Shown here: in pieces, positions 35,673 through 45,357 of the stretch
Position numbering within the stretch: position 1 is the stretch's first letter
Layout: each line of letters starts with the position of its first letter
Assembly (NCBI GenBank): GCA_030148915.1
Contig: JASBSN010000045.1
Span: 1-47,278 of the forward strand
DNA from: Thiogranum sp.
Lineage (GTDB): Bacteria; Pseudomonadota; Gammaproteobacteria; DSM-19610
DNA: 47,278 bases
Direction of reading: 5' to 3'
Program-made: the position numbers and the translations under genes
The notes under the pieces: model-generated
Told to the model about the DNA's origin: nothing
Database searches by the model: none
What the model saw: only the letters and a program-made list of their open reading frames with translations

Positions 35673-36581
35673 ATGGATACTGCCAGCCGCCTGATCTTAT
35701 TCGCCGATGTGATCGACAGCGGTAATTTCAGTAAAGCCGCCGAGCGGCGTGCCGTCAATCGTTCTCTGGTGAGCAAGCAGCTGGCAAAACTCGAAGAGGA
35801 CTTGGGTGTTCGTCTGCTCAACCGCACCACCCGCAGCCTGAGTCTCACTGACGCGGGGCGCGCGGTCTATCAGCACGCCAACACCTTACGCGAGCAACTG
35901 CGGGAGACCGACGCCCTGGTGGCGTCGTTGCGCGATGAAGTCAGCGGTGAGCTGCGCATTTCCAGCACCACTCATTTCGGCCGCCTGCACGTGCTGCCGG
36001 TGATCGAAGCGCTGGCCGCGCAGTATCCGCTTCTCACCGTCGAACTGCGTCTCGAGGACCGTTACGTGGATATTGTCGGCGAGCGTTATGACGTAGCGAT
36101 TCGGATTACCGAACCGGACGATTCTTCCCTGGTGGCGCGCAAACTCGCCGACAACCCGTTTGTAATGGTCGCATCGCCGGCTTATCTGCAACGCCATGGC
36201 ACGCCCCGGACGCTTGACGATCTCCTCGACCATCGGTTCGTCGTGTATTCCGGCGCCTACGGAGTCAACAATCATTGGCGCTACCGCGAAGGTTCGGAAA
36301 TCAAGACCTTTGCCGTCACTCCGCGGATTAAGGTCAATGACGCCCATGCCCTGTTGAAAGCGACACAAGACGGCGTCGGTCTCGCGCTCCTGCCTACCTT
36401 CGTCGGACGCGAAGCCCTGCAAGGAGGTTCTCTGGTGCCGGTGTTAGCCGACCTGCCGCTTATCCCCTATTATCCCATTTATATCATGTACCCCAGCCGC
36501 AACCACCTTCCACATAAAACCCGCCTGTTTATCGATCGGCTGGTCGACTATGTCGGTACGCCGGCTTTCTGGAACACCTAA
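35673..36581 (+). CDS. LysR-family transcriptional regulator
   Basis: 302 residues. The N-terminal winged helix-turn-helix is clear (LILFADVIDSGNFSKAAERRAVNRSLVSKQLAKLEEDLG in segments at about 6-45, then RLLNRTTRSLSLTDAG). The C-terminal periplasmic-binding-type effector domain (about 90-295) begins SGELRISSTTHFGRLHVLPV. Divergent from the Old Yellow Enzyme gene, which it most likely controls in response to an electrophile or quinone. A palindrome in the shared promoter region is a candidate site. A repeat element starts directly after its stop. Confidence 0.93.
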   Translation: MDTASRLILFADVIDSGNFSKAAERRAVNRSLVSKQLAKLEEDLGVRLLNRTTRSLSLTDAGRAVYQHANTLREQLRETDALVASLRDEVSGELRISSTTHFGRLHVLPVIEALAAQYPLLTVELRLEDRYVDIVGERYDVAIRITEPDDSSLVARKLADNPFVMVASPAYLQRHGTPRTLDDLLDHRFVVYSGAYGVNNHWRYREGSEIKTFAVTPRIKVNDAHALLKATQDGVGLALLPTFVGREALQGGSLVPVLADLPLIPYYPIYIMYPSRNHLPHKTRLFIDRLVDYVGTPAFWNT

Positions 36582-36582
36582 G

Positions 36583-36765
36583 GACACCCTGATCAATTCG
36601 TCATACCGGCTCATCAATTCGTCATACCGGCTCAGGCCGGTAGCCAAGCTTTTGTGAAACCCCTCGATGACCCGCTTCGCCCGCCCTGCGGGCGTTCAAC
36701 GCGCCAGCGCTTTTGTCTGGCCTACGCCAGAATGACGCAATAGGAATAAATCAGAGGTTCCCTAA
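36583..36765. repeat. MITE-like repeat, copy 2 with internal 21-bp duplication
   Basis: Close relative of the unit at 22991-23157. Its right half (GCTTTTGTCTGGCCTACGCC and on to TTCCCTAA at 36758-36765) is almost identical to copy 1. The left arm contains a perfect 21-base tandem duplication (36593-36613 and 36614-36634) that accounts for its greater length. It fills the space between the LysR stop and the convergent peroxidase-like gene, whose stop is 64 bases away. Confidence 0.75.
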
Positions 36766-36829
36766 TCCGCTCCAGTAAATGAGCTTGCCCTACGCTGCTG
36801 AGCAGCAACACTTACAGCCCAAATCCGCG

Positions 36830-38494
36830 TCATTCGTAGTCCTCATTCAATGCCCGCAAAAAGGCGGCGATGGGCGCCACGTCTTCGGGCCGCAAACGGA
36901 TACCGCGAAGCGCCGGGGCGGGGTTGCGCAACTGCCCGCGGCGCGCCTGGACCGAGCTCGCCCGATAAAATTCGATCACCGCCTCCAGGCTGTCCAACCG
37001 GCCATTGTGCATATAGGGCGCAGCGTGACCTAAATCCCGCAGGCCGGGGGTTTTAAAGGTGGCGATGCTACGCTCCAGCAACGCCGCTTCGGTACACGGC
37101 GACCGGCGTGGCGCTCCCGGCCGCGCCCGCTGTAGGCCCGCCTCCAGCGGCTCGCGGCACAACAGCCCACCGAGGGTGCCCTGGACATCCGGGTAATCCG
37201 CGTTGGCAAATATATTCCATGCACCCAAATCGGTTTCACCCGGGCGTTCCCCGGTGGCGATAGCCCGAAACGGCTCGCGTGCATCGGGGTGTGCCGGGGT
37301 GGCCGGCAGCCAGGCGTCCGGGTCGCGCCTGCGCACCGCTAAAGACGGTATATACAACGCCTCGAAGGCGCCTTCGCCGTGCACCTCATCGTACTCCATC
37401 TGAGTCACACCCGTGTTGTGCAGAGAAAAATCGGTAAAATTTGGTGCCGCGTGACAAGCGACACAATTACCCGCGCTGCGTTGCCTGGGCCCGCGGAGGT
37501 GGGGTCGTGTGAAAAAGAGTTTCATACCCGCCAGTTCCGTCGGACCGAATACAAACGCTTGGTCGTGAAAGGCAAACGCCGCGTCTTCGGGGGTGACGAA
37601 CTGCGGCTTTTTCAGGCGCTTCAGTTGGTGCAGCAGACGCCGGCTGTAAGCCGAGGCCGATTCGCCGGTGCGCGGCTGGCGCGGTAGCGCATTCTTGTCG
37701 AGAAACAGATCGTAGGGCGAGGCGTTGAATGCGCCGTCCTCGTCTCTGGAAAATTCCAGGTCCTCGACATAGGCGGCTGTCAGACGGCTCACCTGATCAA
37801 AAATCTCTGCGTCGCTGGCCGTGTCGACATCGATACGCCAGGCTTCGGGCAACCTCAGCTCCTCGGGGATCGACGGGTCAGTGCCCTGCAGTACCACGCG
37901 GTAGGCGCCGCCGAACTCCTGTGCCAGTTCGCCACTACCGTCGTCATGGCGTATCACGGCGGCGAAATGACGTATCGCCTGCTCCTGTTCACTCGGCAGC
38001 CAACCGTAGTTGCGGCCGGTATAGGTGCCCTTGACCAGGTCCTGCAATGTGGCGAATTCCCCGTCAAAATGGAACAGGTCACCGCCGGCACGCGGCAACG
38101 ACGCGTTGACCAGCGGCGGGCTGTTGCGCACCGCGTGGGTGCGGCCGTCCTCGCGCCAGGGGATGGGACTGCGGCGGGCAAAATCATTGTAGCTGCGCAT
38201 ACCACCGGCGGTACTGTCGAGCTGCTGGTCGACCAGATGGCAGGCGGCACAATTCATCGACTGCCCGGCAAACGCCCCGGGCAAGGATCCGTCCGGGGTT
38301 TCAGTGCTATCCATGACCGGATCGCCTCCCTGGCCGTGGGCTAAGTAATACTGGGCGAAACGCGTTTCGAGAAACAGCCGTTCGCCAAGGGCGATGGGGG
38401 CCGGATCGGCGGCCTGCTCCGCGCCGATCACCGGGCCGACCAACAAGGCCAGACAGGAGACGATCAGTCCGGGTTTGGGTACTGCGTACATCAT
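36830..38494 (-). CDS. Di-heme cytochrome c peroxidase-like protein (CcpA/MauG superfamily)
   Basis: Secreted c-type cytochrome, 554 residues, clearly longer than the usual 330-380 of bacterial cytochrome c peroxidases. A signal peptide spans about 1-25 (cleavage near VIGA-EQ). Two heme-binding motifs are seen: CAACH (82-86) and CVACH (344-348). The C-terminal domain has TPGLRDLGHAAPYMHNGRLDSLEAVIEFY, where the heme-ligand-type Met of YMHNG is conserved. The segment between the hemes (about 100-335) is expanded. It follows the DUF2325 gene by 38 bases and is likely under the same Fur-controlled promoter. Peroxide detoxification or a MauG-like protein oxidation are both possible. Confidence 0.87.
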   Translation of the reverse strand: MMYAVPKPGLIVSCLALLVGPVIGAEQAADPAPIALGERLFLETRFAQYYLAHGQGGDPVMDSTETPDGSLPGAFAGQSMNCAACHLVDQQLDSTAGGMRSYNDFARRSPIPWREDGRTHAVRNSPPLVNASLPRAGGDLFHFDGEFATLQDLVKGTYTGRNYGWLPSEQEQAIRHFAAVIRHDDGSGELAQEFGGAYRVVLQGTDPSIPEELRLPEAWRIDVDTASDAEIFDQVSRLTAAYVEDLEFSRDEDGAFNASPYDLFLDKNALPRQPRTGESASAYSRRLLHQLKRLKKPQFVTPEDAAFAFHDQAFVFGPTELAGMKLFFTRPHLRGPRQRSAGNCVACHAAPNFTDFSLHNTGVTQMEYDEVHGEGAFEALYIPSLAVRRRDPDAWLPATPAHPDAREPFRAIATGERPGETDLGAWNIFANADYPDVQGTLGGLLCREPLEAGLQRARPGAPRRSPCTEAALLERSIATFKTPGLRDLGHAAPYMHNGRLDSLEAVIEFYRASSVQARRGQLRNPAPALRGIRLRPEDVAPIAAFLRALNEDYE

Positions 38495-38532
38495 GCGATT
38501 TTTCCTTCTGGTAAAGTTCAGCGTGCGGTGGT

Positions 38533-39777
38533 TCAGGCGGCGACCTCGCTCAAACCCCGTGTAAAGGCGGCCAGGCTCGATCTGGGGAGTAACACCAATT
38601 GTTTGCCATGGCGCTTACAGAATTGCCGGACGCGGTTGGTGGCGTCATGACTGACACAGTCCAATGGACAAAGCACCGCATCGGCCTGGGGCAGAATAGA
38701 ACCCAGGCGCAGGCGCCCGTCATGCAAACCGCCGTCATGATGGATGAAACGGCCGTTCTGACGCTCGACCAGGGCGCGAAACCGTGCGCATTGTCGCGCT
38801 CTTCCGCCCACATAGAGAATGCAACGTCCGCACAGATTGAGAGAATTCGCACACCCTTCCTGCTCGCCACAGCCGCTACAATCCGCTGCCAGCAGTTTCT
38901 CCAGAGCCAGTTCCAGGGCATCGCGCTCGACCTGCAACTCCGCCAGACGGCCCTCCAGGCGCAGCACGCGATCGCCCTGTTTCACCGCCATGCGTTGCCA
39001 TTGCTGCAGACCGGCTTGGGCTTGCGCTGTCTGTCGCTGCTCGGTGGCCAGGTGTTCGGCGTAGTGCTCGAGTTGAGCTTGCAGCCGACACCGGCGAGGG
39101 TCATCTTCCAGCGCCCGCAGGCGTTCGCGCATGCGTTGGTCGCCTTGCAGCCTGGTGTGCGCCTGCCGCAGATCTTTCTGTAAGCGGACCAGCGCCCGCT
39201 CACGCTTGGTGCTCTGTATCATTGCCTTTTTTTCACTGGCGGCGAGTTGCTTGGTCAACGTCGCCGACAGGTGTCTCAGGCGCGTGAGTTCCTGCTTATC
39301 GACCCGCACCGCCGCCCCGGCCAGGTGCGAGAGCATATGGACTTCACCGTAAACGCGATCGAGCAACTCAACTGAGGCCCCCGGATGCGTCACCAGAGCC
39401 CAATAGGCCGGCGCTAATTCGCCAGACAGGACGGCCGCCCGCCAGTGCTTTTCCAGCTCTGCGTCACTGTCCAGGCGGCCAAAAAGGCGGATCGTCAGCC
39501 GGTATTTGCGATCCAGGTATTTACCGAGGCGTCCGGCGGCACGGCTGTGCTCTGCGGCGATACAGACGTAGGACCGATGCAACTCGTAATCGGTCGCCGA
39601 ACCTGGCACCCGCAGCCCCAATTTAGGGCAAAGACGGCGTAACTCCGACAGCGACAGGCAGGTGCCCACCACGCTGCAATGAAACGGTCTATCAAGCTCC
39701 CAGAGTTTCTTTCGCGCTGAAAACCCGGAGTTTGTATCGTCCGCCTCCGTAAGCGGTTGTTCGCATTTCCTACACAC
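38533..39777 (-). CDS. DUF2325 protein with Cys-rich centre and coiled coil
   Basis: 414 residues, GTG start, function unknown. The N-terminus carries a CxxC pair (MCRKC), the middle (about 165-297) is a long Gln/Arg-rich coiled coil (LRQAHTRLQGDQRMRERL), then comes a Cys cluster C300, C303, C309, C316, C319 (CSGCGEQEGC and LCGRC) that could bind zinc or an Fe-S cluster. The C-terminal DUF2325 domain starts at ILYVGGRARQC and ends QLVLLPRSSLAAF; the same fold has been noted in dinucleotide- or DNA-related proteins only loosely. A Fur-box promoter lies directly upstream and the di-heme peroxidase-like gene follows, so its role is presumably iron-related. Confidence 0.8.
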   Translation of the reverse strand: MCRKCEQPLTEADDTNSGFSARKKLWELDRPFHCSVVGTCLSLSELRRLCPKLGLRVPGSATDYELHRSYVCIAAEHSRAAGRLGKYLDRKYRLTIRLFGRLDSDAELEKHWRAAVLSGELAPAYWALVTHPGASVELLDRVYGEVHMLSHLAGAAVRVDKQELTRLRHLSATLTKQLAASEKKAMIQSTKRERALVRLQKDLRQAHTRLQGDQRMRERLRALEDDPRRCRLQAQLEHYAEHLATEQRQTAQAQAGLQQWQRMAVKQGDRVLRLEGRLAELQVERDALELALEKLLAADCSGCGEQEGCANSLNLCGRCILYVGGRARQCARFRALVERQNGRFIHHDGGLHDGRLRLGSILPQADAVLCPLDCVSHDATNRVRQFCKRHGKQLVLLPRSSLAAFTRGLSEVAA

Positions 39778-39812
39778 CCCGGTGCCCCGATCAGCTTCGT
39801 TGATAAGATTTG

Positions 39813-39841
39813 AATGATAATCGTTCTCATTCTCATGTCAA
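39813..39841 (-). promoter_or_regulatory. Fur box overlapping a sigma-70 promoter for DUF2325/peroxidase operon
   Basis: On the minus strand TTGACA (39841-39836) and TATCAT (39819-39814) are separated by 16 bases, a strong promoter. AATGATAATCGTTCTCATT (39813-39831, plus strand) fits the 19-bp Fur box and its 7-1-7 core TGATAAT-C-GTTCTCA, covering the -10 and spacer. Fur with iron would block polymerase. The transcript starts about 30 bases before the GTG of the DUF2325 gene. Confidence 0.8.
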
Positions 39842-39869
39842 ACCTTTTTCGGCGCGCCCTTTCATGCGC

Positions 39870-40979
39870 TCATTCCAAGCGCTGGGTAAAAAACCACCCG
39901 GCCAGCGCCAGTGTCAACGCCCCGATCACCAACAATGGCCAGGTGTTGGCCCATACATCCATAAAGGGCATATTTTTTAAAAACAATCCTTTCAAGGTGA
40001 TGAGAAAATGCTTCAGCGGATTGGCCCAGCTTGCGACCTGCAGCCAGTGGGGCATGTTTTCCACCGGCGCCGCGTAACCCGAAAGGGTGACCGCGGGCAC
40101 CATGAAAATAAACGCCCCTAGAATCGCCTGCTGCTGGGTTTGCGAAAGGGCGGATAGAAACAGCCCGACGCCAACCACCGACATGACAAAAATGAACAAG
40201 GCAAACAGCAACAGAAGGAACGAACCTGTAAACGGCACGCCAAAGACGCCCGTGCCGACGGCGAAAATCAACAACCCTTCGCCCATGCCGACCAGCACCG
40301 CCGGCACGGTCTTACCGAACAATATCTCGGCGGGGGTGAGCGGCGAGACCAACAACTGATCGAAGGTGCCCAGTTCGCGCTCCCGCGCTACCGAAAGCGA
40401 AGTAACCATAAGCGTAATAAGCATGGCCAGAATGCCCACCAGCGACGGTACCGTGAACCACAGATAGAGCAGGTTTTCATTGAACCAGTTGCGCGCCACG
40501 ATAACGGTCGAGGGCAGCAGATGAGGCCTGGCAGCGAGTATCGCCCGCTCATAGTCTGCGACCAGTTGGGTAATATAGCCGTTAACGATTTGGGCGGCGT
40601 TGGAGCGGCGCCCATCCAGAATCACTTGCAGGGTGGCCGGCTCCCCCGCTTCTATGTTGCGGGAAAAGTCTGCCGGTATATAGAGCGTGGCCATGACCTT
40701 CTGTCGATCGATCAGGGGTCGTAAAGCGCTCAGGTTGTCGACAAATCTGATCTCGGTGAAAGTGGGCGAACCGCTCAGGCGCTGGACGATTTCGTAGCCG
40801 TGTTTGCCGTGGTCCTGGTTAAACACCGCCACACTGACATTTTTGACTTCTAGGGTGGCTGCAAACGCAAACACAACCAGTTGCAGCACCGGCGGCCCGA
40901 TGAGGATCAAACGCCCTCGGCGATCACGAAACAAGGTGAGCAGCTCTTTTACGATCAGCGCAAAAATACGCCCGCTCAT
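39870..40979 (-). CDS. ybhR: ABC-2 type exporter permease, YbhR-like
   Basis: Inner-membrane subunit of the YbhGFSR-type exporter, 369 residues. It has one N-terminal helix (about 23-42, LILIGPPVLQLVVFAFAATL), a periplasmic domain of about 130 residues, and five helices in the C-terminal half, including VTSLSVARERELGTFDQLLVSP, the conserved ABC-2 coupling stretch. Its ATG overlaps the stop of the other permease gene by four bases (ATGA). It is the last gene of a five-gene unit, in the same order as E. coli cecR-ybhG-ybhF-ybhS-ybhR. Confidence 0.9.
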   Translation of the reverse strand: MSGRIFALIVKELLTLFRDRRGRLILIGPPVLQLVVFAFAATLEVKNVSVAVFNQDHGKHGYEIVQRLSGSPTFTEIRFVDNLSALRPLIDRQKVMATLYIPADFSRNIEAGEPATLQVILDGRRSNAAQIVNGYITQLVADYERAILAARPHLLPSTVIVARNWFNENLLYLWFTVPSLVGILAMLITLMVTSLSVARERELGTFDQLLVSPLTPAEILFGKTVPAVLVGMGEGLLIFAVGTGVFGVPFTGSFLLLLFALFIFVMSVVGVGLFLSALSQTQQQAILGAFIFMVPAVTLSGYAAPVENMPHWLQVASWANPLKHFLITLKGLFLKNMPFMDVWANTWPLLVIGALTLALAGWFFTQRLE

Positions 40980-42094
40980 GCGTCCAGGCGCTTTCGCGTT
41001 TTACGCGACGTGAGTAAAAAGAAAACCAGCGCGATCAACGCCATCGCCGCCATGCACAGGAGAAGCAACGGCCACACATTGCCCGTTAAAAACAGTGTTT
41101 GCAGGCTGGTGACAAAATAGCGGGCGGCGAATAGGTGCGTCAGAACCTGGATGGGTTCCGGCATGGCGCTGATCTCAAAAATAAAACCGGACAGCATAAA
41201 CGCCGGTAGAAAGGCCGACATCAGCGCCAGTTGCGCGGCGACAAACTGATCCTTGGCGATGGAGGATATCAGCAGCCCCTGCCCCAGCGCGGCCAACAAA
41301 AAGACCGCAGACACAATGCTGAGCGCGAGCAAGGAACCCCGGAAAGGCACCGCATAGACCCACATCGCTACCACGACGCACAGAAACATCGCAGCCATGC
41401 CGAGGAGAAAATACGGAATCAACTTGCCCAACAGAATCTGGCCGCTCGAGACAGGTGTGGCCATCAGCGCCTCCATCGTTCCACGCTCCCATTCCCGGGC
41501 AACCACCAAGGCGGTGAGCAAAGAACCGATCAGCGTCATGATAATGGCGATCGAGCCGGGTAACAGAAAATTCTGACTCTTCAACTCCGGGTTGTACCAA
41601 AAGCGCGGGGCGACCTGGATGGCAGCGGCGTTAGTGCTTCGCCCCTCGTCCTCGCTCTGATGCTGTGACCATACGGCGAGGACACCACGGGCGTAGTTCT
41701 GCACAAAACCGGCAATATTCGGTTCCGATCCGTCGGCGATCACCTGGATCGCCGCGCTGCGCTTGTGTTGCGCGATCTTTCGACTAAAATCCTGCGGGAT
41801 GACAATAATACCGCGGAGGCGCCCGGCGCTGAGATCATCCTGGTATTGGCGCCGATCCTTCCCGATGCTGACAACAAAAAAACGTGAATTAGCAAACGCC
41901 TCGGCGAGGCTGGTGGTATCGGCGCTCTGCGCCTCCAGCACCAGTCCCACGCGGACTTTGTTACTGTCGAGGTTGACGCCATAGCCAAAAATAAACAACA
42001 GGATTAATGGCAACACGAAGGCAATCATAATCGCGCTGGGATCGCGCATGATCTGCAGCATCTCCTTTACAACAAGAGCCTTTAGCTGCCTCAT
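40976..42094 (-). CDS. ybhS: ABC-2 type exporter permease, YbhS-like
   Basis: Second membrane subunit, 372 residues. Topology is the same as its partner: an N-terminal helix (about 24-42, IMIAFVLPLILLFIFGYGVN), a large periplasmic loop with a DGSEPNIAGFVQNYARG segment, and a C-terminal helix bundle with VVAREWERGTMEALMATPVSS. The two permeases would form a heterodimer on the double-ATPase subunit. It overlaps the ATPase gene and the ybhR-like gene by four bases each, so stoichiometric translation is likely. Confidence 0.9.
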   Translation of the reverse strand: MRQLKALVVKEMLQIMRDPSAIMIAFVLPLILLFIFGYGVNLDSNKVRVGLVLEAQSADTTSLAEAFANSRFFVVSIGKDRRQYQDDLSAGRLRGIIVIPQDFSRKIAQHKRSAAIQVIADGSEPNIAGFVQNYARGVLAVWSQHQSEDEGRSTNAAAIQVAPRFWYNPELKSQNFLLPGSIAIIMTLIGSLLTALVVAREWERGTMEALMATPVSSGQILLGKLIPYFLLGMAAMFLCVVVAMWVYAVPFRGSLLALSIVSAVFLLAALGQGLLISSIAKDQFVAAQLALMSAFLPAFMLSGFIFEISAMPEPIQVLTHLFAARYFVTSLQTLFLTGNVWPLLLLCMAAMALIALVFFLLTSRKTRKRLDA

Positions 42095-43821
42095 GCCGCC
42101 GTCTTCCCAGCCGCTGAAAGCTCGCTGCGACGCACCAACTCAATGAACGCGTCCTCCAGCGTGGGCGGCTGCCCCCCCTCCGTCTGAACCCGCGCTTTGA
42201 GATCATCCGGGGTACCCGTGGCGATATTCTCCCCTTGATAGATCAACCCTATGCGGTCGCAGTACTCGGCCTCATCCATAAAGTGCGTAGTCACCATCAC
42301 CGTAACGCCTTTTTCGACCATGCCGTTGATGTGCAGCCAGAACTCGCGTCGGGTGATGGGGTCGACGCCGGATGTCGGCTCATCGAGAAACAGTACGTCC
42401 GGTTCGTGCATTACCGCACAGGCCAGCGCCAGTCGTTGTTTGAAACCTAAGGGTAATTCACCGGCGTTGTACTTGAGATAGTGTTGCAGATCGAATATTT
42501 CCACCATCATATCGATCTGCTGTTTCTGTCGCTTGCCGCCAAGACCGTAGAGACCGGAAAAAAATCTTAGATTCTGCAGCACGTTCAGGCTGCTATAGAG
42601 TGAGAACTTCTGCGCCATGTAGCCGAGGTGGGAGCGCGCCAGCGAGGTCGCCGTACGCAGATCCAGCCCGGCGACAAACGCCTGACCTTCTGTGGGCTGC
42701 AACAACCCACAGAGCATTTTGAAGGTTGTCGATTTTCCCGCGCCGTTGGGGCCCAGCAAGCCGAATATTTCTCCTCGCCGGACGCTGAAACTGTTGTCCT
42801 TCACGGCGCAAAAGTCACCGAACTGCTTGCTCAAACCGACAGCTTCAATCACCGGCTTATCGCTTACCGGTTTCTCGGCCATACGCTCGGCCAGCGCCGA
42901 ATACCCACCGGGACCGCCGCCTAATACGTCGATAAACGCATCCTCGAACCAGGGAGCAACCCGGTGCCAGCTGCCCTGATCGAGTCTTGGCACCGGTGTG
43001 TCTTTAGCCAACAGGACACGCAGTTGCTTACCCTGGATAACGCCATCCATGACACCGTCCTGACGCAGCAGATCCATCAGTACGCCACGCCGGCGCCGGT
43101 CGTCGATGTCACGGATCTGAAAAGTGCGGCCATCGACGCGGTCGAGAAGATCATTGGGTGGACCGCTATAGAGTTTCCGCCCCTCGTTGAGCAGAATCAC
43201 ACTGTCGCATTTTTCCGCTTCGTCCAGATAAGAGGTTGACCAGACGACCGCCATGCCCCCGGAAAGCATCTCTCTGACCATCTTCCAGAGCTCTCTTCGG
43301 GAAATCGGGTCGACACCCACACTGGGCTCGTCCAGCAGCAAGACTTTCGGATCGCCCATCAGCGCGCAGGCCAGACCCAGCTTCTGCTTCATGCCCCCGG
43401 AAAGTTTTCCGGCCAGCCGTCCGGTAAAACGCTTGAGCTCGGTGAATTCGAGCAGCTTTTCAAATTTGCTTTGACGCGCCTGCCCCGTTACCGCGCGCAA
43501 ATCAGCATAGAGCTCGAGATTTTCGCTGACGCTCAAGTCTTCGTAGAGACCGAACTTTTGCGGCATGTAGCCGATGATGGCGTGAATCGCTTCGGCTTGC
43601 GTGCGGCTGTCAAACCCCTCGACCGTGACGCTCCCCGCATCGGCGTGCAGCAGCCCGGTGATCAAACGGATGAGCGTCGTTTTACCGGCGCCGTCAGGGC
43701 CGACCAGCCCGGACATTTCGCCGGGACGCAGCGTCGCGCAGATCCGATCCAGCGCCGGCTTTTGCATGCCCGGGAACGTCTTGACCAGGTTGTCAAGGAC
43801 GACTGTCCCCTCATTTGCCAT
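42091..43821 (-). CDS. ybhF: Fused double ABC ATPase, YbhF-like
   Basis: Cytosolic motor of the exporter with two ATP-binding cassettes in one chain, 576 residues (E. coli YbhF 578). Cassette 1: Walker A LVGPDGAGKTT, signature LSGGMKQKLGLACALMG, Walker B VLLLDEPSVG. Cassette 2: Walker A LLGPNGAGKST, a degenerate signature LPLGFKQRLALACAVM, and Walker B VLFLDEPTSG. The second signature lacks the canonical LSGG, so the two ATP sites may be unequal. The start overlaps the HlyD-type gene by 11 bases. Confidence 0.95.
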   Translation of the reverse strand: MANEGTVVLDNLVKTFPGMQKPALDRICATLRPGEMSGLVGPDGAGKTTLIRLITGLLHADAGSVTVEGFDSRTQAEAIHAIIGYMPQKFGLYEDLSVSENLELYADLRAVTGQARQSKFEKLLEFTELKRFTGRLAGKLSGGMKQKLGLACALMGDPKVLLLDEPSVGVDPISRRELWKMVREMLSGGMAVVWSTSYLDEAEKCDSVILLNEGRKLYSGPPNDLLDRVDGRTFQIRDIDDRRRRGVLMDLLRQDGVMDGVIQGKQLRVLLAKDTPVPRLDQGSWHRVAPWFEDAFIDVLGGGPGGYSALAERMAEKPVSDKPVIEAVGLSKQFGDFCAVKDNSFSVRRGEIFGLLGPNGAGKSTTFKMLCGLLQPTEGQAFVAGLDLRTATSLARSHLGYMAQKFSLYSSLNVLQNLRFFSGLYGLGGKRQKQQIDMMVEIFDLQHYLKYNAGELPLGFKQRLALACAVMHEPDVLFLDEPTSGVDPITRREFWLHINGMVEKGVTVMVTTHFMDEAEYCDRIGLIYQGENIATGTPDDLKARVQTEGGQPPTLEDAFIELVRRSELSAAGKTAA

Positions 43822-44656
43822 CCGCGGCGCCCGCTGCGTCCGGACTCAGATGAACAGTTACCGGCATGCCCTGGCGCAGTCCGTTATCCGGGGTGTCGAC
43901 GATAATCCGCAGCCGGTAGACAAGACTGGTGCGCAGCTGCGAGGTTTCGACACTTTTGGGTGTGAATTCAGCTTGGGGTGAAATAAAACCAACCTGACCG
44001 GTATATTCTCTGCCAGCATCAGTGGTCACGCTGGCCCTTTGCCCCGGATAAACACGACCAAGAAACGGTTCGTCCACATAGGTGCGCACCCAGAGCGGGT
44101 GGCTTAGAGCCAGTGTATAGACGCTGGCGCCCTGGGCCACAACAGAGCCCGGCTCTGTTACACGGGTCAGTACAATACCGGCTTGCGGCGCGCGCAGTTC
44201 GGTATCAGCCAACTGCGTTTTAACCAGATCCAATTGTGCTTCGGCGCGTACCCGTCGCGCTCTGACCACATCTCGGTTAGCCATCGCGTCATCGTACTGT
44301 TCTTTTGCCACCGCACCCGTTTTTAACAGCTCGGCACGACGCCTGAACAGCTTCGCGGCGTTGACAAAAGTCACCTTTGCTTCAGCCAACTCGGCGTTGG
44401 CCAGCGCCAGATCATCGAGAAACGGCTGCTGATCCAGCACCGCGAGCACCTCCCCCTGTTTAACAGCATCACCCTCTTCAAAGCGCATTTGTGTGATACG
44501 GCCCGCAACGCGAAAGCCGAGCGCCACATCGCGAATATCGACATTGCCATAGAGTGTGAGGCGGTTGTCTTCCGTGGCCGCCTCCTGTTGGTGATAGAGG
44601 TAATAGGCACCTCCGGCGAGCAGTAACACCAGGAGAGGCAGGAATATCTTTTTCAT
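43811..44656 (-). CDS. ybhG: HlyD/membrane-fusion protein, YbhG-like
   Basis: Periplasmic adaptor joining the inner-membrane exporter to an outer-membrane channel. 281 residues, with one N-terminal membrane anchor (KKIFLPLLVLLLAGGAYYLY), a lipoyl/barrel-sandwich half (RVAGRITQMRFEEGDAVKQGEVLAVLD), an alpha hairpin (about 90-155, LANAELAEAKVTFVNAAKLFRRR) and the second lipoyl half with LRAPQAGIVLTR. I chose the ATG giving MKKIFL, which overlaps the regulator stop (ATGA); a longer frame start 57 bases upstream would add a stretch without family similarity. Confidence 0.93.
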   Translation of the reverse strand: MKKIFLPLLVLLLAGGAYYLYHQQEAATEDNRLTLYGNVDIRDVALGFRVAGRITQMRFEEGDAVKQGEVLAVLDQQPFLDDLALANAELAEAKVTFVNAAKLFRRRAELLKTGAVAKEQYDDAMANRDVVRARRVRAEAQLDLVKTQLADTELRAPQAGIVLTRVTEPGSVVAQGASVYTLALSHPLWVRTYVDEPFLGRVYPGQRASVTTDAGREYTGQVGFISPQAEFTPKSVETSQLRTSLVYRLRIIVDTPDNGLRQGMPVTVHLSPDAAGAADGK

Positions 44657-45357
44657 CGGTCCTCGCCCCGGCACAGCATGGGTACTTTCAGCGCCGCCGC
44701 TACCTGCGCCCATAAGACTTTGTGGATCAGACTGACATGGTGATCACTGAGCTTTTTTACACCGAGTTGGCGTATCAGTGTCTCGCGGCTCGAAAGGAAC
44801 ACCAGTATCTGCCCCAAAAAGGTATGGGCGCGGATCTTGGCTTCATCACCTTGCGCAGGCAGACCGGTACATATACCAATCAAAGCCGAGATCTGACCGT
44901 GCAGCGTTTTCATCATACCGTAGTACAATATGTCAAATGCTTCGGTAGGCCGAGCCTGCTCGCGCATCACTATCAGCGCCCAACTTTTAGGCTCATCCGA
45001 ATCGACAAACAGATGGGCGACACTTTCCACCAGTGTTTTAAGAGCCTTCCTGGCACTGAGTTTGGTCAGCATCGGTTCTTTTTCGCGTATCGCCTCGCAG
45101 GCCGGCCCGATGTATTGCGTCGCGCGCTGCACGATGTGCTCGATTACCGCTTTATACAGACCTTCCTTATTGCCGAAATAATAGGCAATGGCCGATACGT
45201 TGGCGCCCGAACTCTGAGACAGCATGCGCGTGCTGGTACCATTGAAACCGTACTCACCAAACAACTCCAGGCCCGCGGCGATCAACGCCCGGTCGGTGGC
45301 GTCACGATTCCCATTGGGCGCTTTTTGCGGTGCTTTATTTCCCGCCGCAGGGCTCAT
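44653..45357 (-). CDS. cecR: TetR-family regulator, CecR-like
   Basis: 234 residues. The N-terminal DNA-binding helix-turn-helix is clear (LELFGEYGFNGTSTRMLSQS and GANVSAIAYYFGNKEGLYKAV), and the C-terminal ligand domain matches the CecR/YbiH group by length and neighbours. It heads the exporter transcript and is expected to repress it, with relief by an antibiotic-type ligand; E. coli CecR controls ybhGFSR and is linked to cefoperazone and chloramphenicol sensitivity. A palindrome over its own -35 is the probable operator. Confidence 0.92.
   Translation of the reverse strand: MSPAAGNKAPQKAPNGNRDATDRALIAAGLELFGEYGFNGTSTRMLSQSSGANVSAIAYYFGNKEGLYKAVIEHIVQRATQYIGPACEAIREKEPMLTKLSARKALKTLVESVAHLFVDSDEPKSWALIVMREQARPTEAFDILYYGMMKTLHGQISALIGICTGLPAQGDEAKIRAHTFLGQILVFLSSRETLIRQLGVKKLSDHHVSLIHKVLWAQVAAALKVPMLCRGEDR

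Follow-up and report, generated by a model that had tools for sequence, protein, structure and literature searches.

The window analysed here (the whole stretch of 47,278 nucleotides) is part of a 3.2-Mb gammaproteobacterial genome, and the closest relative bearing both genes described below belongs to the same genus and is a MAG of Thiogranum sp. (G004 = L077). Two genes lie in tandem on the reverse strand. The first, a DUF2325 gene (38533–39777), begins with a GTG start that is backed by relatives and encodes 414 residues. After a gap of 38 nt it is followed by a di-heme gene (36830–38494), which encodes 554 residues. Their other neighbours in the window are LysR, OYE and ABC transporter genes. 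Upstream of DUF2325 on the same strand (39870–45357) are a CecR-type TetR regulator, an HlyD-like protein, a double ABC ATPase and two ABC-2 permeases, a gene set that we take to resemble a ybhGFSR-like efflux operon. Terminator-like sites near the locus occur at chance level only.

The promoter ahead of the DUF2325 gene consists of a −35 element TTGACA (39836–39841, reverse strand) and a −10 element TATCAT (39814–39819, reverse strand), separated by a 16-nt spacer. Together they match 11 of 12 consensus bases, and both are invariant in seven genomes. This is the sole promoter-like site found by scanning 36400–40100, a count that by itself is at shuffle level (1 found versus 1.1 expected). A putative Fur box, GAGAATGAGAACGATTATC (39816–39834, reverse strand), overlaps the spacer and the −10 element and matches the 19-mer consensus at 15 positions. 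None of 300 shuffles of the region upstream scores as high, and a match of at least 15/19 is found upstream of 2.8% of 719 unrelated neighbour genes at other loci. The pattern TTGACAT...AATG.GAA..(at)TATCATT stands ahead of DUF2325 in seven genomes, where the promoter/operator core has a mean pairwise identity of 0.83, compared with 0.29 and 0.34 in the flanks. The DUF2325 proteins behind this operator are only 45–62% identical to that of the window. Judged on sequence, such conservation is a stronger test of the Fur box than the match count. The sequence-only reading had placed a Fur box over a near-consensus promoter, and this is borne out by the match, the shuffles and the core kept in seven genomes. 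The operator is a property of the DUF2325 gene; the genes downstream of DUF2325 differ between genomes, one of which has a TonB receptor there (G018). Several other DUF2325 genes show no Fur box ahead by such matching, and some of them sit downstream of HemP. The genome encodes two Fur-family homologues over the cut-off (best E-value 8.7e-47). In scans of the same genome, the other convincing Fur box lies ahead of the gene for an FTR1 iron permease that carries a cytochrome c domain (L161, G000:C34).

The DUF2325 protein has a conserved Cys/His-rich N-terminal part, a coiled coil at about residues 165–295 and a C-terminal DUF2325 domain at residues 319–411 (38545–38823, reverse strand; PF10087, 75.5 bits against a curated cut-off of 33.6). 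A profile search against the PDB returned coiled-coil matches only and thereby assigned no fold to the protein. A PHROGs search gave nothing useful. The coiled coil had been recognized earlier together with an N-terminal CxxC and a five-Cys cluster. The coiled coil stands, while the CxxC and most of the cluster are not conserved among 30 homologues: Cys5 is present in a single one, Cys300, Cys303, Cys309 and Cys316 in 7–11, and Cys319 in 18. Residues Cys34, Cys40, His67, His131, His147, His151, His347, Cys370, Cys374, His377 and Cys387 are kept in 24–30 of the 30 and are candidates for metal or heme binding.

Elsewhere, DUF2325 genes have iron genes among their neighbours. Full-length gammaproteobacterial members adjoin bacterioferritins and Bfd (L058, L063), and full-length members also adjoin genes of ferritin-like proteins (L060, L067, L072, L021, L078). 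Other neighbours are HemP (L061, L071, L076), HmuY (L061), TonB receptors (L057, L021), PepSY (L072), imelysin (L068) and DHOR (L075). In Campylobacter jejuni the short DUF2325 gene cj1384c has a motif for Fur repression, and its expression is raised in a fur mutant (PMC4491227). Cj1384 and the protein of the window have the DUF2325 domain and a Fur motif at the gene in common, and Fur repression would be shared as well; Cj1384 differs in having 104 residues, without the long N-terminal part, and in being also under PerR, beside katA (PMC9426514). The iron-gene neighbours and the Fur repression of cj1384c together give good support to a function of DUF2325 in the homeostasis of iron or heme. 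The literature searched mentions DUF2325 in no more than four papers. A small conserved Cys-containing ORF (..LCAADFRCLDCESKQCVWRLLLMNC), without a Pfam match, lies near DUF2325 in five loci (L057:7482–7751, L078:1719–2135, and also L063, L069 and L070); the window gave no match to its motif.

The second gene encodes a protein with a signal-peptide-like N-terminus and two CXXCH motifs, in agreement with the secreted 554-residue di-heme protein that had been read 38 bases behind DUF2325. The first heme motif is CAACH at residues 82–86 (38237–38251, reverse strand) and the second is CVACH at residues 344–348 (37451–37465, reverse strand). Cys82, Cys85, His86, Cys344, Cys347 and His348 are invariant in all 59 aligned sequences. 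Tyr510 (codon 36965–36967, reverse strand) aligns with the axial Tyr294 of MauG in both HMMER and hhalign, and is Tyr in 58 of 59. His142 (codon 38069–38071, reverse strand) occupies by hhalign the place of the inter-heme Trp of MauG and bCCPs (Trp93 in MauG), and it too is kept in 58 of 59. The Pfam CCP_MauG score (PF03150) is 29.5 bits against a cut-off of 25.6. An AlphaFold model based on the 59-row alignment has a pLDDT of 88.7; it was used instead of a poorer model from an 8-row alignment (pLDDT 50.6). The model matches bCCPs with Z-scores of 17–25 (best 24.8, Shewanella BccP), MauG with 23.0, the MbnH-type protein 6e1c with 21.8 and BthA with 20.1. These matches span about 270–315 residues, and the remainder of the protein is made of insertions. 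With MbnH-like proteins hhalign gives a probability of 99.8% over 313 columns, while the NCBIfam equivalog cut-offs are missed by far (48.1 versus 443.85 bits for MauG and 50.7 versus 362.85 bits for MbnH). Within the CCP_MauG superfamily the protein represents a long branch of its own, unnamed so far, with an enlarged bCCP/MauG fold; no description of this branch was found in the literature searched.

Compared with MbnH, MauG and BthA, the protein has the same two c-type hemes, the same fold (Z 20–23), the axial Tyr of the second heme by alignment, and the PYMHNG motif. It differs in about 200 extra loop residues, in heme motifs 262 residues apart and in the near-invariant His in place of the inter-heme Trp. 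No mau operon or mbnP gene lies beside it, and its context is of Fur type rather than methylamine- or copper-linked. The core fold is also that of canonical bCCPs (P. aeruginosa, N. europaea and S. oneidensis BccP); in contrast to these, the protein is longer, lacks the inter-heme Trp and has by alignment Tyr510 where canonical bCCPs have Met as the axial ligand of the second heme. FadCcp (PA2077/PA2078) and the rubber oxygenase RoxA are likewise long di-heme proteins with widely spaced CXXCH motifs (245 and 235 in PA2077/PA2078, 199 in RoxA; PMC4496055). The fold match to RoxA is weak (Z 6.5), with weak RoxA-like Pfam matches in three of eight di-heme members, and FadCcp is likened by description only. 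BthA, which has no inter-heme Trp, nevertheless reaches the bis-Fe(IV) state and shows turnover of H2O2 (PMC6405878), so that both MauG-type and peroxidase chemistry are possible for the long branch.

A scan of genome contigs gave 114 di-heme relatives, of which 80 were kept. About half belong to Nitrospira and its kin and many to Gammaproteobacteria; others are from Nitrosomonas marina, Nitrospinaceae, Acidobacteria and further groups. Viral contigs gave none, and plasmids gave weak C-terminal matches only. Solitary di-heme genes in Gammaproteobacteria and Nitrospinaceae often have Fur-type boxes of their own (13–17/19). In Nitrospira the di-heme gene closes an operon that also encodes a porin-like protein, FMN_bind and a four-helix membrane protein, often with a divergent ApbE. 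Its full order is porin-like protein, lipoprotein, FMN_bind, 4-TM protein, HD and long di-heme protein (L084, L103, L111, L132, L138, L146 and about 30 other loci). No Fur box lies directly upstream of the Nitrospira di-heme genes, because the promoter stands ahead of the first gene of the operon. There, CTTGACA-N16-GATATTAATAATCGTTCTC is found, with an identity of 0.99 in the box compared with 0.57 and 0.47 in the flanks (24 sequences); its likeness to the consensus suggests that this box is of Fur type. The Ectothiorhodospiraceae operon comprises, in this order, porin, FMN_bind, PepSY_TM and di-heme genes. PepSY-like flavinylation clusters are reported to be repressed by Fur in two species and to have a link with iron assimilation (PMC8238504). 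They have in common with the operons of the di-heme relatives the partners FMN_bind, ApbE and PepSY_TM, none of which lies beside the genes of the window, and the text of that paper mentions no di-heme enzyme. In seven gammaproteobacterial loci (L135, L147, L151, L152, L153, L155 and L156) a conserved protein without a Pfam match, CL23 (483–535 residues, about 487), is encoded immediately upstream of the di-heme gene; most of these loci have a cupin (CL24) ahead of CL23. CL23 is a candidate substrate. By the same test as above, no Fur-type box was found ahead of these cupin/CL23-linked operons. Directly downstream of solitary di-heme genes, five loci (L087, L089, L092, L093 and L097) encode CL31, a protein of 146–170 residues and of unknown family.

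We propose, with a probability of roughly 60%, that the locus is a Fur-repressed iron-starvation transcription unit, in which the exported di-heme protein serves iron assimilation in the periplasm as an oxidase that depends on peroxide or O2, and the two genes are members of a regulon, not an obligate pair. As long as iron is sufficient, Fe-Fur would occupy the box across the −10 element and spacer and block the promoter. On iron starvation the promoter would fire, and DUF2325 and, by co-transcription, the di-heme protein would be made. DUF2325, rich in Cys and His, would then take part in the handling of iron or heme in the cytoplasm. The di-heme protein would be exported, matured as a c-type cytochrome and folded into an enlarged enzyme of the MauG/bCCP type in which Tyr ligates the second heme. 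It may oxidize an iron ligand or an envelope protein, the choice of substrate being a guess. For the siderophore-type substrate suggested from the sequence, the data speak neither for nor against. In other lineages the enzyme is probably coupled to flavinylated electron carriers (FMN_bind/ApbE/PepSY). A two-heme protein would be costly to make during iron starvation, and we therefore infer a return in iron. The Fur control claimed from the sequence is supported by the conserved operator, by Fur-type boxes found independently at both families and by the published repression in C. jejuni. The expected role in the iron-starvation response has gained support as well, with the link to iron holding for each gene separately.

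The di-heme protein could instead be a periplasmic H2O2 peroxidase of the BthA kind, which would protect iron-starved cells short of catalase and other iron enzymes and would have no part in iron acquisition. BthA has the same Tyr-ligated heme and turns over H2O2 without the inter-heme Trp; the fold matches to BthA and BccP, and the C. jejuni DUF2325 gene with its PerR control and katA neighbour, fit such a role as well. Against it, the operons with porin and FMN_bind/PepSY and those with ferritin genes indicate iron assimilation and not defence. No catalase gene was recognized beside the di-heme genes, although a peroxiredoxin-like gene (CL34) is near in five loci. On balance we find this purely protective role somewhat unlikely.

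Another reading makes the protein a maturase of the MauG/MbnH kind, which would oxidize Trp or Tyr of an envelope protein so that this protein binds iron, much as MbnH probably does with MbnP in the case of copper. The hhalign match to MbnH-like proteins, the axial Tyr and the position of CL23 directly upstream in seven loci are consistent with such an activity. It is unlikely nonetheless: no candidate substrate gene lies beside the di-heme gene in the window, the scores fall far below the MbnH and MauG equivalog cut-offs, and His stands in place of the inter-heme Trp that MauG requires for TTQ synthesis.

The sequence-only reading had the two proteins working together as a dedicated system, a claim that is not borne out and that we regard as improbable. 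Among the genomes covered, DUF2325 and di-heme genes are adjacent in only three: that of the window, the congeneric Thiogranum sp. MAG and an Acidiferrobacterales MAG (L078). In the latter, labelled as another order, a small Cys protein and a ferritin-like gene lie between the two, and the di-heme reading frame is interrupted near its start. The adjacent arrangement is probably older than the genus, because one of the three genomes is labelled outside the family of the genus. Also in favour of a joint system, another locus (L075) has a DUF2325-like gene beside imelysin and DHOR, a different di-heme family. Against direct joint action, the predicted compartments of the two proteins differ, and in both families a member is mostly found without one of the other family. 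Moreover, one congener (G014) has kept DUF2325 with its promoter at this locus but lacks the di-heme gene, with nothing nearby on the same strand. Of 369 gammaproteobacterial genomes two have both genes, and once the query genome is removed the remaining one gives no significant co-occurrence (p = 0.30). The best reading of these data is that two Fur-regulon genes share one operator in this lineage and are not an obligate pair.

An EfeB-like role, in which the di-heme protein would oxidize Fe2+ or supply oxidation for an FTR1 permease, is highly improbable: the FTR1-cytochrome c gene does carry the other convincing Fur box of the genome and EfeB/DHOR peroxidases do accompany imelysins and FTR1 (PMC3143127), but FTR1 occurs in 4 of the 8 genomes with a di-heme gene and in 24 of 114 genomes of a class sample, too few for an association and leaving half without FTR1, so that coupling to FTR1 is unsupported by co-occurrence. 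EfeUOB and the imelysin/DHOR operon PA4370–PA4373 (PMC3143127) are under Fur control, act in iron uptake and include a periplasmic protein akin to heme peroxidases, much as proposed for the locus; they differ in that the heme protein of the window is of another family and that neither imelysin nor EfeB/DHOR lies beside it.

A periplasmic oxidase serving iron assimilation, as preferred here, may extend beyond this lineage. Tentatively, the long di-heme family may be an iron-starvation enzyme common to Nitrospira, Gammaproteobacteria and others, which would use MauG-type high-valent heme chemistry to release or capture iron, fed in some lineages via a porin and a flavinylated carrier. It would then join EfeB and DHOR as a third heme-oxidase module linked to Fur. 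Through this locus and its relatives, DUF2325 and the long di-heme branch are connected with iron starvation in two phyla, including the main nitrite oxidisers (Nitrospira). Should the proposal hold, a widespread domain of unknown function would gain a function open to test, and MauG-type chemistry, so far known for methylamine and copper proteins, would have a place in iron assimilation. Against the proposal, some alpha- and betaproteobacterial DUF2325 genes adjoin molybdenum genes rather than iron genes. On plasmids of Caballeronia, Methylorubrum and Rhizobium (L052, L053 and L056), DUF2325 lies beside NifQ, modABC and Glp.
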